Made by a program: the position numbers and the translations under genes. The notes below the pieces were generated by a model. It did not search any database. It was not told where the DNA came from and worked only from the letters and a program-made list of their open reading frames with translations. A stretch of 36,784 bases of DNA from Candidatus Onthousia faecipullorum (GTDB lineage: Bacteria > Bacillota_I > Bacilli_A > RF39 > UBA660): positions 1 to 36,784 of the forward strand of contig DVKQ01000075.1 in NCBI GenBank assembly GCA_018715925.1. Direction: 5' to 3'. This document shows, in pieces, positions 7,890 to 18,202 of this stretch. Numbering within the stretch: the first letter of the stretch is position 1; each line of letters opens with the position of its first letter.

Positions 7890-8480
7890 ATGATTAGTAA
7901 AAATGATTTAGAATATATAAGGGATGACTATAGTGATATTGATAAACAATATAAAAAAATAGAACAAGAAATATGGGGATTAGAAGAGACTCCTATAGTT
8001 AAAAAGTATATTGGATTACAAAAAAAGAAAACTGAACTTGAAATTAAAAGAAAAAATCTACATGGATTAATGGAACATGGTGAGTATGAAAACTGTAATC
8101 ATTTATGGAGTATTTCTATGGATGAATATGGAGAATATGATTGCTTTTGTGTTAAATGTGGTTTGAATTATAAGTCATTGAGATTAACTAATAGAGGAAA
8201 AGAAAATAGCCTTTCTTTTGATGAGAGAGTTATGGCATCTGTTTTAAAAGAACAGAGTTTTGTAAATGATGCTGATATAAATATAGTTTGTGATAGAGAA
8301 CTTGCTATGGCTATCTATAAAAAGATTAGAGAATATTATCCTGATATTGATGATAAAACAGTTATCAAGTATTTTGAGATAGCTTTAAATGATATTAGAA
8401 ATATAGAAGTAAGTGATGAAAGAAAGAAGAGTAGAGCGAAAAGATTAGGTTTAAGTAAAGATTTTAATAAATGGAAATAG
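7890..8480 (+). CDS. Hypothetical coiled-coil / zinc-ribbon-like protein, upstream partner of HipA-like kinase
   Basis: I do not recognise this protein. Residues ~1-60 form a charged helical, probably coiled-coil segment (DIDKQYKKIEQEIWGLEE, LQKKKTELEIKRKNL). A likely metal-binding module follows, with CNHLWSIS and CFCVKCG (Cys/His spaced as in a small zinc ribbon). The C-terminal half is helical with KKIREYYPDIDDKTVIKYF. TGGAGG at 7877-7882 precedes ATG 7890. It is the first gene of an operon, 12 bases ahead of a HipA-like kinase, in the position where hipB would normally sit. However, no helix-turn-helix of the HipB (Xre) type is apparent. A regulatory or partner role for the kinase is a guess from position. 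Confidence 0.8.
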   Translation: MISKNDLEYIRDDYSDIDKQYKKIEQEIWGLEETPIVKKYIGLQKKKTELEIKRKNLHGLMEHGEYENCNHLWSISMDEYGEYDCFCVKCGLNYKSLRLTNRGKENSLSFDERVMASVLKEQSFVNDADINIVCDRELAMAIYKKIREYYPDIDDKTVIKYFEIALNDIRNIEVSDERKKSRAKRLGLSKDFNKWK

Positions 8481-10593: not shown

Positions 10594-13188
10594 ATGGGGG
10601 ACAATAATAAATTTAACATTGTAAAGTATTTTGAAGATATAAAAAGACAGTTATATAGTTTAGGTTATGAAAATAAATTAGTAAGTGTTAAAGAAGTAGA
10701 AGATTTATATAATATATATGGATATGGATTTAGTTTAAATACATTTTTAAGAGAAGTTTTAGAAATTGAGACATCGTGGTTTATTCAAGCTAGAGCTAGT
10801 GATAAAAGAGTAACAATATTAAAAATAAAGGATAGATTAACAGATAAGGAAATAATAGAATTAAGTAATAGACTTATAAAACTAGGTTATGCTATGAATA
10901 AAGTTAATTATTTTGAATTAGAAAAAATATATAATAAGTTTGGTAAAAATTTAACTTTAAGAACATTTGCTACTAGAGTTTTAAATCTTAGTTTTGGTAG
11001 TTATGAACAAATGCTGAAACATAGAGATAAAAAATTTATAATATTAAAAAATGTTGGTAATATAGAAAATATTAAGAGAATAATGTTAGATGATGGATAT
11101 GAAAATTATATAATTTCTTCATATTCTAACTTATTAGATTTATATAGTACTTATGGTTATACTTTTACTGAAACTATTTTTGCTACTGAAGTTCTTGGTA
11201 TGTCTTATAATCAATATAGAGTGTTAAAAAGAACAAAAAATAATTATAACGTTAAAGTATTAACTAGAAGTCTAACACTAGAAGAAATAAGTGAAATAAT
11301 TGATATTTTGAAAAAGCAGGGATATGAAAACAAAAAAATTTCTTATAATGATTTTTTAGCTTTGTATAATATCTATGGTGAAAATACTAATATAAAAGAA
11401 TTTTCTATCACTGTCCTTAATATGTCTCTTGATGATTTTAAAACACTTAAATATAATAGAGGAAGTGTGATTATTTCTTTTAAAGATACTAATAAAAAAT
11501 ATAATGCTATAATTGAAAAAATGGTTCAAGATAGATTACTCAATAAATCTATTACTTATAAAGAGCTACAACAATTACATTTTAAATATGCCAAAGAACT
11601 TACTGAAAAAGAGTTTGCCCTAGAAGTACTTGAAATTTCTCTTGATAACTATAGAGCTTGTAAAAAGACTAATAATCCTGCTAGAGTTATAATTTTAAAA
11701 AAGAATATTGAAAAGGAAATAACAAAAATAAAAGAAATATTAATATCTAAAGGTTATACTAATAAAAAGATATCCTATCAAGAATTTCTAAATTTATATA
11801 AACAATATGGTTATTTTTTGAGTGATAGAAAGTTTGCAAATGAAGTTTTAGGAGTTAATTATTCTACATATGATGCATCTAAAACTTTAAAAAGAGATAT
11901 TATTGTTTTACCATTAAAAAATAAACCAATTAAAGAGTTACAAGATATTAAAAAAGCCTTAATTGAATATGGTTATGAAAATAAAGAAATCGATGTAGAA
12001 CAAATAGATATTTTATATGAGTGCTTTGGACATGGAATAACTAAGACTGACTTTATTAATAAAGTTCTAGGAGTAAATCTAGAAAAAGATCAAAAAAAGA
12101 AAGTAATTTTAAAAAAGATTGATATATTAAATGAAGACGAGATGGAGGATTTAAAACAAAAAATATATTCTTTAGGATATTATCATAAAGATATATTAGC
12201 TAGTGAAGTAATAGAATTATATAATAAATATGGAACAGAATTAAGTTTCAAAACATTTAGAAATAGAATTTTAAATATAACTGCTCCTCAATTAAACTTT
12301 GCTAAAAAATATAACTTGTTTATTAGAATTAATGATATAAATGTAGATAATACTATGGAATATATTAGAAATGTATATTTAAATGACTATAGATATTATA
12401 GTAAAGAAGAAATAATAATGCTATGTAACTACTATAATATTAGTTTTGATGACTTTATATATTATGTTTATTTAAAAAAATATAAAAAATTGCATGAGAA
12501 ATACTTTAATAGATATAAAGAAATTTTAGTTAAACATGGAAAACTATGGATTGGTAATGGGATAGTTGATATGAATATGTTACAAAAATATTATGATAAA
12601 ATATCTAAAAGTATTAGGCAAGCTATTACGCATTTAAAAAATGAAAAGTATTATCTTTATAAAAACCAAAGCGAGTATAATGATGTATTTCAAGATGCTT
12701 TATTATTTTTTATGGAAAATGGTTCAGAAATTCAAAATAATTATATGGTATATGAAGATGATTATAATTGGGAGAGTTATTTACAAGGAAAAATAAAGAA
12801 ACATTTGATGTATAAATATTATGCAAAAGTTAGAAAATATATACCTTATGCAAGCAGATATTATAATAAATATTCAGATGAAGAACGGGAATTTGTTGAT
12901 GAGAATACAGATACTGCAATTAATGCTATAGATAATTTGCAGATAGATAATCTAAAAAGAGTTGATGAATGTATTACTAGTTTAGGCAATTTGATATTAG
13001 AAGGATATAGTATAAAAGAATCTAAAGAATTAATATGTAAAAAAATGAATATTGATGAAATTACTTTAAAGGAAATTATGGAAATATATATAGAGGAACA
13101 TAATATTATTAATTTTGATATTAGTGTTTTAGAATTTGGTGGTGATACTGAAAATAATAGAAATTATCAAAAAGTTAAAGTAAAGTAG
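10594..13188 (+). CDS. Large repeat protein (eight ~72-residue repeats) with sigma-70-like C-terminal region
   Basis: This 864-residue soluble protein is not one I recognise. Residues ~9-579 are eight divergent repeats of ~72 residues. Each has the pattern LxxxGYxNKxISYxEhxxLYxxYG, then a helix-turn-helix-like LSxxxFAxxVLxIS, then Y and a basic strand ending ILK. The last 285 residues are different. Residues ~694-745 (EYNDVFQDALLFF, WESYLQGKIKKHLMYKYY) resemble sigma-70 region 2 (the xDLxQExxLxLL and FxxYLxxxIRxxL patterns). Residues ~789-834 (SLGNLILEGYSIKESKEL, CKKMNIDEITLKEIM) could be a region-4-like helix-turn-helix. The start ATG 10594 has only a weak GAGTG upstream. It lies 16 bp after the CDF gene. 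A repeat-bearing DNA-binding or transcription protein is inferred; a direct sigma function is not shown. Confidence 0.8.
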   Translation: MGDNNKFNIVKYFEDIKRQLYSLGYENKLVSVKEVEDLYNIYGYGFSLNTFLREVLEIETSWFIQARASDKRVTILKIKDRLTDKEIIELSNRLIKLGYAMNKVNYFELEKIYNKFGKNLTLRTFATRVLNLSFGSYEQMLKHRDKKFIILKNVGNIENIKRIMLDDGYENYIISSYSNLLDLYSTYGYTFTETIFATEVLGMSYNQYRVLKRTKNNYNVKVLTRSLTLEEISEIIDILKKQGYENKKISYNDFLALYNIYGENTNIKEFSITVLNMSLDDFKTLKYNRGSVIISFKDTNKKYNAIIEKMVQDRLLNKSITYKELQQLHFKYAKELTEKEFALEVLEISLDNYRACKKTNNPARVIILKKNIEKEITKIKEILISKGYTNKKISYQEFLNLYKQYGYFLSDRKFANEVLGVNYSTYDASKTLKRDIIVLPLKNKPIKELQDIKKALIEYGYENKEIDVEQIDILYECFGHGITKTDFINKVLGVNLEKDQKKKVILKKIDILNEDEMEDLKQKIYSLGYYHKDILASEVIELYNKYGTELSFKTFRNRILNITAPQLNFAKKYNLFIRINDINVDNTMEYIRNVYLNDYRYYSKEEIIMLCNYYNISFDDFIYYVYLKKYKKLHEKYFNRYKEILVKHGKLWIGNGIVDMNMLQKYYDKISKSIRQAITHLKNEKYYLYKNQSEYNDVFQDALLFFMENGSEIQNNYMVYEDDYNWESYLQGKIKKHLMYKYYAKVRKYIPYASRYYNKYSDEEREFVDENTDTAINAIDNLQIDNLKRVDECITSLGNLILEGYSIKESKELICKKMNIDEITLKEIMEIYIEEHNIINFDISVLEFGGDTENNRNYQKVKVK
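10618..12330 (+). repeat. Region encoding eight ~72-aa protein repeats
   Basis: Anchor points of the units are the GY/GYxNK motifs (YSLGYENK, IKLGYAMN, LDDGYENY, KKQGYENK, VQDRLLNK, ISKGYTNK, IEYGYENK, YSLGYYHK) and the following LYxxYG-FxxxVL cores. DNA-level identity between units is low, so the repeats are old. Confidence 0.8.
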
Positions 13189-15884: not shown

Positions 15885-16700
15885 ATGACAGATATTATTA
15901 ATACAATTATTTTAGGAATTATTCAAGGTATTGCTGAATTTTTACCTATTTCAAGTAGTGCTCATTTAATTATTTTTAGAGATTTATTTGGAATAGGTGC
16001 TGATATGTCTACTAAAGTTGCCTTATGCTTTGATTTAGCATTACATTTAGGTACATTACTTGCAATAGCGGTGTTCTTCTTTAAAGACTTTCTAAATATG
16101 GTTATTAAAGGCGTTACTAAGGGAGTAAAAGATAGTGATGGTAAATTATTTTGGCAAATAGTAGTTGCAACTATTCCTGCTGCTATTGTAGGGGTTTTAT
16201 TTGAAAGTACTATTGAAAATGCTATTAGAACTAATTATCTTTTAATTGCAACTGCCCTAATAGTAATGGGTGTTATCATTTATCTTGTTGATAAAAAATG
16301 TAGGGAAGAAAAAAATACTAAAGAAATATCATTTAAAGATGCTATTATTATAGGATGTTCTCAAGTCTTTGCCCTAATACCAGGTTTTTCTCGTAGTGGT
16401 ACAACTATTGCTAGTGCAAGAGCTTTAAAAGTTGATAGAGAAAGTGCAGCAAAGTTTTCCTTTTATCTATCAGCACCTGTTGTTCTTGGAGCCTGTGTCC
16501 TTCAATTACTTGATGATGGAGCAGTATCACTAATTATGGAAAATTGGGCTATCTTTATTTTAGGAATTGTTGTCTCATTTATTACTGGTTTAATTTGTAT
16601 TAAATTTTTACTACAATATCTTAAAAAGCATGACTTTAAACTATTTATGATTTATCGTATTATCCTTGCTATAATTGTTATTTTAACAGTGATATTTTAA
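15885..16700 (+). CDS. uppP: Undecaprenyl-diphosphatase (UppP/BacA)
   Basis: This integral membrane enzyme dephosphorylates undecaprenyl diphosphate to recycle the lipid carrier for peptidoglycan. Overproduction confers bacitracin resistance in known cases. Signature motifs are complete: QGIAEFLPISSSAHL near residues 14-28 (the Glu and Ser-rich motif) and PGFSRSGTTI near 166-175 (catalytic Arg). Several hydrophobic helices follow, and the length of 271 residues fits the family. AGAGG precedes ATG 15885. It is the first gene of the long envelope operon, 14 bp ahead of the DUF1016 gene. Confidence 0.95.
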   Translation: MTDIINTIILGIIQGIAEFLPISSSAHLIIFRDLFGIGADMSTKVALCFDLALHLGTLLAIAVFFFKDFLNMVIKGVTKGVKDSDGKLFWQIVVATIPAAIVGVLFESTIENAIRTNYLLIATALIVMGVIIYLVDKKCREEKNTKEISFKDAIIIGCSQVFALIPGFSRSGTTIASARALKVDRESAAKFSFYLSAPVVLGACVLQLLDDGAVSLIMENWAIFILGIVVSFITGLICIKFLLQYLKKHDFKLFMIYRIILAIIVILTVIF

Positions 16701-16714
16701 GGAGGTAGAAAGTT

Positions 16715-17446
16715 ATGTTAGATAAATCATTTAGAGAAATATGTGATGGTATTAAAAAAGATGTTAAAGATACTCAGTTAGAGATCATGATAAATGCTAA
16801 TACTAATTTAGTTAATCTTTATTATAGAATAGGAAAAATAATTAGTGAGAACTTTTCTTGGGGAAATAAATTTGTAGAAAATGTTTCTTTTGAACTTAAA
16901 AATACCTTTCCAACTTTAAAAGGCTTTTCCGCTCGTAATTTAAATTATATGAAAGCTTTTTACGAAGAATATAAAGATGATGAAGAATTTTTGCACTGCT
17001 TAAACTGTGCAAAATTACCTTGGAAGCATAATATTACTTTAATGCAAAAAGTAAAAGATAAAAATATTCGTAAATGGTATATGGAAAAATGCTTAGAAGA
17101 AGGTTGGTCAAAGAATATTTTAATCTATCAGATAGATACTGATTTATATAAAAGACAGGTAGAAAATGTAAAACATAATAATTTTAAGGTAACTTTGAAA
17201 GAGAATAGTGATCTTGCTAATAATATTATGAAAGAGCCTTATGTAGATGATAATGATAATCCTTCTATTGGTATTATTTTGTGTTCTAGTAAAAATAACC
17301 AAATAGTAGATTATACTTTAAAATATATTAATAAACCACTAGGAGTTAGTGAATATAAAATATTTAATAAACTCCCTAATAATTTATTAAAAGATTTTCC
17401 AACAGAAGATGAATTAAATATCTTTATGGATATAGATGAGGGGTGA
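16715..17446 (+). CDS. DUF1016 (YhcG-type) protein lacking its PD-(D/E)XK nuclease core
   Basis: The N-terminal ~175 residues match the DUF1016 helical/winged-helix domain (GFSARNLNYMKAFYEEY, LPWKHNITLMQKVKD, WYMEKCLEEGWS). The C-terminal ~65 residues match the very end of such proteins (NDNPSIGIILCSSKNN, NKPLGVSEYKI, LPTxEEL-like FPTEDEL). In intact relatives, about 100 residues containing the catalytic Asp and the ExK strand lie between them. Here MKEPYV (residue 177) runs directly into DDNDNPSIG in frame. The protein is therefore 243 residues rather than ~340 and should be nuclease-dead, though the DNA- or partner-binding ends remain. AAGGAGG (16699-16705) gives it a strong ribosome binding site. 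Whether it is functional or a remnant is open. Confidence 0.8.
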   Translation: MLDKSFREICDGIKKDVKDTQLEIMINANTNLVNLYYRIGKIISENFSWGNKFVENVSFELKNTFPTLKGFSARNLNYMKAFYEEYKDDEEFLHCLNCAKLPWKHNITLMQKVKDKNIRKWYMEKCLEEGWSKNILIYQIDTDLYKRQVENVKHNNFKVTLKENSDLANNIMKEPYVDDNDNPSIGIILCSSKNNQIVDYTLKYINKPLGVSEYKIFNKLPNNLLKDFPTEDELNIFMDIDEG

Positions 17447-17452
17447 TAACTA

Positions 17453-18202
17453 ATGAATAATACACTTGCTTTATTTATAACTTTCTTATTAGGATTTTTT
17501 ATCATTATAGGAGTTATAATAGCATTCTTTTTAAAGAAACAAAAGAAGGTCTTAGACTTTATCTTTGCCTTTGCTCTTTCTATTCTTACAATGTTAATAC
17601 TAACAGATTTATTAGGACATACTATAGAGCATTTAGGAATTAAACATATTTATCTATTTATTCTTTTCACATGTCTTGGACTTTTAATCTTTAAAATAAT
17701 AGATGATTTTGTTCCAGAACATGAAGATGCAAAATTAACTAAGAGGGAAGAATATAAAAATATTGTTCATATTGGAATGCTTTCAACAATCGCTTTAATC
17801 ATCCATAATTTTGTAGAGGGTATGGCTATTTATTTAACTTCTGCTAATGATCTTAATTTAGGTATAATGATGGCTTTAGGAGTAGGACTTCATAATATTC
17901 CTTTAGGTATCATTATTACAACTACGTTAAATAATGATAAAAATACTTTCAAATATCTTTTCTGTATAGGTTCTTTATTTATATCAAGTTTCTTAGGAGG
18001 TTTATTACTTTACTTATTAAATATTAATACTGTTAGTGATATCGTAATAGGCTCTTTACTTGCTCTTACTATAGGTATGATTTTATATATAATTATTTTT
18101 GAATTATATCCTAAAGTTAAGAAGACTTCTAATAAGAAAATCACTATTATAGGATTAGTTACTGGTATAGTACTTGCTCTTATAGGAACATTTATTGGAT
18201 AG
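17453..18202 (+). CDS. ZIP family metal transporter
   Basis: This is a polytopic membrane protein for uptake of divalent metals (Zn, Fe, Mn). About eight hydrophobic helices are visible. The family's metal-site helices are HNFVEGMAIY (about residues 122-131) and HNIPLGIII (about 148-156), matching the HNxxEG and HNxPxG signatures. A charged His/Glu/Asp-containing loop (DFVPEHEDAKLTKREEYKN) lies before them. The length of 249 residues fits ZupT/GufA-like bacterial ZIPs. GAGGGGTGA overlapping the previous stop acts as its ribosome binding site, and it lies 6 bp downstream of the DUF1016 gene in the envelope operon. Substrate cannot be told from sequence. Confidence 0.88.
   Translation: MNNTLALFITFLLGFFIIIGVIIAFFLKKQKKVLDFIFAFALSILTMLILTDLLGHTIEHLGIKHIYLFILFTCLGLLIFKIIDDFVPEHEDAKLTKREEYKNIVHIGMLSTIALIIHNFVEGMAIYLTSANDLNLGIMMALGVGLHNIPLGIIITTTLNNDKNTFKYLFCIGSLFISSFLGGLLLYLLNINTVSDIVIGSLLALTIGMILYIIIFELYPKVKKTSNKKITIIGLVTGIVLALIGTFIG

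Follow-up and report, generated by a model that had tools for sequence, protein, structure and literature searches.

The DUF1016/YhcG proteins (COG4804; PF06250 and PF17761) form a family in which an N-terminal domain, DUF1016_N, precedes a predicted PD-(D/E)XK nuclease domain, YhcG_C, and to our knowledge no activity has been demonstrated for any of them. The matching PADLOC profile, PDC-S02, denotes a phage-defence candidate only, and we are aware of no functional assay of it. Here we present an analysis of a member of this family in a 36,784-nt stretch of DNA from Candidatus Onthousia faecipullorum (assembly GCA_018715925.1, contig DVKQ01000075.1, positions 1 to 36,784), referred to below as the window. 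In the window, an open reading frame (ORF) at 16715..17446, lying between uppP and a ZIP-type transporter gene, matches the family in domain order, and its intact orthologues do so in conserved residues and predicted fold; it differs in having no catalytic core. We consider it likely that this ORF is a truncated allele of a mobile nuclease gene that has been lost repeatedly from the uppP-ZIP interval, and we find that many intact members of the family carry a co-varying palindrome within the gene.

Free-standing homing endonuclease genes offer, from general knowledge, one parallel: they too are short nuclease genes that move apart from their flanks and leave empty, occupied and degenerate alleles. 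Unlike in those systems, at the locus described here, which is known from sequence, the site is internal to the gene and the empty uppP-ZIP interval has no palindrome. In-frame palindromic DNA within coding sequence is also known from the Rickettsia palindromic elements and the PARCEL repeats, which are dispersed or tandem in many unrelated genes (PMC2996958). The DUF1016 palindrome, in contrast, keeps to a single place in a single gene family; its arms co-vary, and its sequence differs from one gene to the next. We found no prior account of a DUF1016/YhcG palindrome in the accessible portions of the family literature searched (PMC1189080, PMC1913061, PMC4316617 on DUF1016, PMC7967276), a search outside which most subscription papers fell.

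The features of the locus are listed here, with the deletion expressed relative to L037, an intact orthologue of 337 aa.

16715..17446, + strand: DUF1016/YhcG ORF (PADLOC PDC-S02), core deleted in frame; 243 aa, ATG start
16751..17155, + strand: complete DUF1016_N domain, residues 13-147 (Pfam)
16989..17014: intragenic palindrome TTTTGCAC-N10-GTGCAAAA, inside the DUF1016_N coding sequence
17245..17246, + strand: deletion junction, 282 nt absent (94 codons, L037 residues 178-271)
17246..17443, + strand: retained end of the nuclease domain, 66 codons; predicted disordered
16701..16705, + strand: ribosome binding site GGAGG, read upstream of the DUF1016 ORF
15885..16700, + strand: uppP, left neighbour
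17453..18202, + strand: ZIP-type transporter gene, right neighbour

Alignment with L037 places window residues 1-177 on its residues 1-177 and window residues 178-243 on its residues 272-337. The preliminary description of this DNA had proposed an in-frame loss of the catalytic core, and this is borne out: the break falls between residues 177 and 178, as it had said, and the number of residues gone is 94 rather than the "roughly 100" it gave. The open frame, the good ribosome binding site and the operon-like spacing that it reported were all seen again, the ORF starting 14 nt past the uppP stop and ending 6 nt ahead of the ZIP ORF. Lost with the deletion are the invariant residues E189, E206, F211, D230 and K247 (alignment columns, in orthologue numbering), and the complete YhcG_C PD-(D/E)XK domain with its catalytic residues, present in intact orthologues, is absent. 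Using Pfam, DUF1016_N was detected over profile positions 2-137 of 137 (E 3.5e-38; 131.3 bits against a cut-off of 32.8) and YhcG_C in part, residues 149-227 matching profile positions 75-155 of 157 (E 6.6e-14); the PDC-S02 profile matches the intact orthologue at E 1.2e-123 and the window protein at E 7.9e-69. A model of the window protein predicts residues 1-150 to be folded, with ten-residue block means of 63-94 for the predicted local distance difference test score (pLDDT), and gives residues 154-218 values below 50, the tail being predicted disordered. When the intact orthologue was modelled with AlphaFold, pLDDT averaged 81.5 over the whole protein and the nuclease domain was confident, with a fold close to EndoMS/NucS (Z 11.5 and 11.3, in a comparison that barely probed the N-domain); the family profile had no convincing match among the sequences of solved structures. 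Judged by its sequence, the window ORF belongs to the DUF1016/YhcG family as a degenerate allele, with a nuclease predicted to be dead because the core residues are deleted and the model retains the N-domain only, followed by a tail of pLDDT below 50. The repeat GATGATAATGATAAT (17246) at the junction had been offered as a clue to the deletion mechanism; these 15 nt are also present in intact orthologues, where they encode DDNDN before PSIG, and a causal part is ruled out, as GATGATAATGATAAT is native coding sequence of intact relatives.

The uppP-ZIP interval was compared across 35 genomes of the genus, one per species; uppP and ZIP were each detected in 34 of the 35 (G018 gave neither), and 34 had a readable interval. 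The DUF1016 gene is intact in ten of these (G004, G007, G008, G009, G010, G013, G016, G021, G024 and G030), broken in nine (G000, which is the window genome, and G001, G003, G011, G012, G019, G032, G033 and G034), reduced in G015 and G023 to a remnant of 115 or 131 nt (the G023 call resting mainly on the palindrome) and absent from 13, uppP adjoining ZIP where the interval is empty. One-base insertions or deletions account for G003, G032 and G033 (in the last the locus is spread over two contigs), deletions with or without frame loss for G000, G011, G012 and G019, and truncation together with stops for G001 and G034; in these draft metagenome assemblies single-base lesions may include errors, and large deletions are unlikely to. 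The deletion in G011 has the same right end as that of the window and a different left end, and G012 retains an open frame, shortened to 154 aa. The window deletion itself, which the preliminary description had suggested looking for in related genomes, was found in none of them and is unique to the window genome among the 34 compared. Presence state changes 13 times on a flank tree of 26 genomes. The one-base frameshifts of G003, G032 and G033 are clustered at orthologue codons 198-208, the start of the nuclease domain, near short A and T runs, and could reflect slippage, switching or assembly error.

The palindrome within the DUF1016_N coding sequence is, in the window genus, the long-loop form of one found at the same position in many DUF1016 genes. 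Its arms change together among orthologues (TTTTGCAC/GTGCAAAA, TTGTGCAC/GTGCACAA and TTTTGCAAC/GTTGCAAAA). Elsewhere among DUF1016 genes, this protein position coincides with palindromes that differ in sequence and are no less perfect; carriers include E. coli K-12 yhcG, an archaeon, Actinomycetota, Fusobacteriota, Bacteroidota and the Wolbachia phage WO. In 22 of 50 genes, each chosen to represent one 70%-identity cluster, none of 60 synonymous shuffles reached the longest inverted repeat of the gene. Arms of at least 10 bp occur in 32 of 75 DUF1016 ORFs versus nine of 327 control ORFs from the loci that hold them. Alignment A1 was built from 50 genes that overlap in part with the first 50 and include more close relatives of the window; 33 of these, all distinct sequences, share a fixed register. 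The 17 off-register genes comprise ten from the window genus and close relatives with loop insertions or deletions, L198, which is shifted by half a base, and L005, L030, L161, L162, L171 and L189, with another site or none; L161 and L162 were misplaced at the site by MAFFT, and both have palindromes nearby.

Covariation was scored in the 33 genes sharing the register. At distances 1-8, their 264 cells hold 250 Watson-Crick pairs, four G-T pairs and ten others; hybrid arms, combining different genes, gave 0.50 Watson-Crick and 0.065 G-T. Eleven of 12 pairs have changed on both sides with 91.7% of cells paired, and the covariation score is 0.661, versus 0.048-0.108 for slid versions. Furthermore, a held-out archaeal and bacterial sample was drawn from the phyla of L076 (family in 32 of 196 genomes) and L072 (34 of 198) with a few extra loci; it consists of the best loci of those searches, nine of 73 aligned domains having been dropped (gap, near end or duplicate). 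Arms of at least 8 bp were present at 34 of its 64 sites versus three of 320 shifted positions, and 31 of the 34 palindromic sites lie in one register. The palindrome is widespread, not universal, and constitutes a DNA-level signal held in place over bacteria and archaea while its sequence keeps changing.

On the protein side, a loose motif, hydrophobic-Q-x-x-x-A-K/Q-hydrophobic, is conserved at the palindrome position, and the amino acids encoded there appear to be constrained by the DNA site. The encoded loop probably tolerates changes, since nowhere else in the modelled N-domain of the intact orthologue is confidence as low (mean 63 over residues 91-100). The palindrome can still be read in nine of the 11 broken or remnant alleles in the genus, among them G011, G015 and G023, from which most of the gene is lost; it is mutated in G001 and lost in G012. 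This persistence in decayed alleles was noticed after the fact and is suggestive only.

The gene appears to move, because some species pairs are more alike in the gene than in its flanks. Synonymous divergence between G000 and G004 is 0.13 for the gene versus 0.48 for uppP and 0.58 for ZIP; the corresponding values are 0.18, 0.52 and 0.95 for G000 and G013, and 0.17, 0.58 and 0.92 for G004 and G013. The order is reversed between G004 and G008, at 0.66 for the gene versus 0.23 and 0.17 for uppP and ZIP. Among 55 pairs, the gene diverges by less than half of both flanks in eight (three of which are near-identical genomes and carry little weight) and by more than twice in two. The gene tree groups G000, G004 and G013 with G001 (support 97/99), and the flank tree rejects a clade of G000, G004 and G013 in an approximately unbiased (AU) test (p 0.003), the clade having been chosen after the gene divergences were seen. 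Otherwise near-identical alleles (E. coli yhcG L202/L203, and G009/G007) are set apart by a block whose end lies around the palindrome, with identity dropping to 56% and 71%, respectively, and look as if the N-domain block and the palindrome had been swapped together.

E. coli, in which 4420 of 5426 complete genomes have a yhcG match, presents the palindrome in several arrangements. The yhcG genes of K-12 and SCU-171 have three tandem in-frame palindromes at the site and one more 16 nt past the stop, and this downstream copy differs symmetrically in its outer bases (CTGCAGACA in K-12 versus CTCCAGACA in SCU-171); an O157:H7 allele has lost 78 bp, including two of the three. One gltD-nanQ interval without the gene was read (L205, 67 bp), and in it a palindrome stands alone; an insertion sequence (IS)-rearranged locus, L206, also holds one, and occupied alleles keep one too. 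Broken ends lie inside the palindrome in L199, which adjoins IS1, and in L200, which adjoins a transposase gene and recurs in an E. coli B strain (L204); these two separate insertion-sequence events end at nt 385-406 of the yhcG coding sequence, and the palindrome may be an IS hotspot. A dispersed palindromic element of the repetitive extragenic palindromic (REP) or Rickettsia palindromic element (RPE) kind is ruled out by the few copies per genome: palindrome copies in E. coli occupy a median of two and at most five places per genome, and, in a separate search of nine genomes, a 14-mer from the site was present in four and mapped to a single place in every one of them. A pattern scan of viral contigs for the palindrome found nothing.

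In the mechanism that we propose, the window ORF would be a nuclease-dead allele, presumably of recent truncation, of a horizontally moving single-gene nuclease, which would occupy the uppP-ZIP interval in some species of the genus and there be repeatedly broken and lost. The nuclease dimer, or its N-domain, would read the palindromic dyad, such that the gene would carry its own DNA site and the two would change together; the site might serve self-cleavage and movement of the gene, or it might serve to repress the gene that carries it. The palindrome would then be the putative cognate site of the nuclease, a concrete candidate substrate for a widespread nuclease family that is itself a phage-defence candidate. 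More tentatively, and with rather less than even confidence, we suggest that DUF1016/YhcG may be self-addressed, carrying its own predicted palindromic target in an N-domain loop, such that the two would move, recombine and shift specificity as a unit; it is possible, with the same reserve, that this makes it a single-gene analogue of a restriction-specificity or homing system, from archaea to E. coli. The pattern of empty, occupied and broken alleles and the separate gene history speak for a homing role, and autoregulation through the palindrome would fit too. Several results weigh against these proposals. The 13 empty uppP-ZIP intervals contain no palindrome, and so offer no recognition site in an empty allele that the gene could have disrupted. 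Flanking palindromes are generally unrelated to a gene's own site: copies of it were seen in four of 51 cases versus 57 of 1020 with random genes, which is no enrichment and rules them out as general copies, single cases being the E. coli downstream palindrome, L240 and L002. Also, L005, L030 and L189 have no palindrome at the site, 30 of the 64 held-out sites have arms shorter than 8 bp, and, when distances between palindromes were matched to those between protein segments in order to locate a recognition segment, palindrome type was weakly associated with any one segment. As to movement, the choice of clade for the AU test was post hoc, and in the reverse test the flank grouping stays compatible with the gene (p 0.20).

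Other explanations of the symmetry must be weighed against a DNA site. An mRNA hairpin, acting in translation control or decay, would account for a palindrome that lies within the transcript and for pairs that co-vary as in a stem. RNA stems, however, tolerate G-U pairs, and the four G-U among the 254 Watson-Crick-or-G-U cells at distances 1-8 are below the hybrid background; the E. coli copies outside the gene and in a gene-less interval also argue against this explanation, which we regard as unlikely. The palindrome looks like a DNA dyad rather than an RNA stem, and perhaps the nuclease's own site, because its symmetry is kept while the sequence changes and G-T pairs are few. A functionless symmetry, kept by template-switch (quasi-palindrome) mutation alone, would yield in one step the symmetrical double changes seen between close relatives, and is in keeping with the tandem in-frame copies in E. 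coli; the sharing of a single register between phyla, seen at 31 of the 34 palindromic sites held out, is left unexplained, however, and such palindromes are rare in control ORFs. Template switching may help to keep the symmetry without explaining its fixed place, and as the whole explanation it seems improbable to us. That the symmetry is a by-product of amino acids that the protein needs there, as the conserved loose motif might suggest, is extremely unlikely: synonymous shuffles of the same proteins abolish the symmetry, hybrid arms do not pair, and the residues differ where the palindrome stays perfect (for example in L161, L177 and L188).

The short protein could be a maintained, nuclease-dead DUF1016_N regulator or scaffold, as the preliminary description had envisaged in raising a regulator, immunity partner or scaffold. 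The open frame, the ribosome binding site, the predicted fold of the N-domain and the shortened open frame of G012 are all in its favour. So are the surviving codons, which do not show the relaxed selection that had been named as telling against maintenance: the ratio of nonsynonymous to synonymous divergence (dN/dS) between the window and its nearest gene (G004) is 0.16 over 240 retained codons, intact pairs giving 0.08-0.29, and the private changes of the window lineage number six synonymous and no nonsynonymous when compared with four agreeing relatives, or three and one under a stricter rule. The decayed G001 and G034 have 19 and eight private nonsynonymous changes as well as new stops. 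This leaves room for a conserved function of the short form, and is a point against decay. On the other side, a full core is kept at the same locus in ten relatives, the deletion is unique, and eight congeners are broken there in other ways, most of them destructive, with two remnants and 13 empty intervals; the tail is predicted disordered, and the deletion may be too young for selection to show. We do not find maintenance supported and consider it decidedly unlikely. Absence of relaxed selection fits a very recent deletion and constraint equally; the window allele would be recent or still constrained, and we infer recent loss because of the other lesions at the same locus. Taken alone, the truncated ORF is an ordinary case of gene decay.

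Additional family members and repeats were noted. The window genome (1.4 Mb) has further DUF1016 genes or fragments on contigs C54, C51, C18, C16 (two), C20, C78 and C4; those on C54, C18 and both on C16 are open frames of 306-365 aa, the C51 copy has a stop, and those on C20, C78 and C4 are fragments. In L078, two long palindromes with arms of 29-30 bp (1839-1898 and 8259-8319) flank a Coriobacteriia DUF1016 fragment by a few kb. Elsewhere in the window, an 864-aa ORF at 10594-13188 (+ strand) is built of repeated units of about 70 aa.
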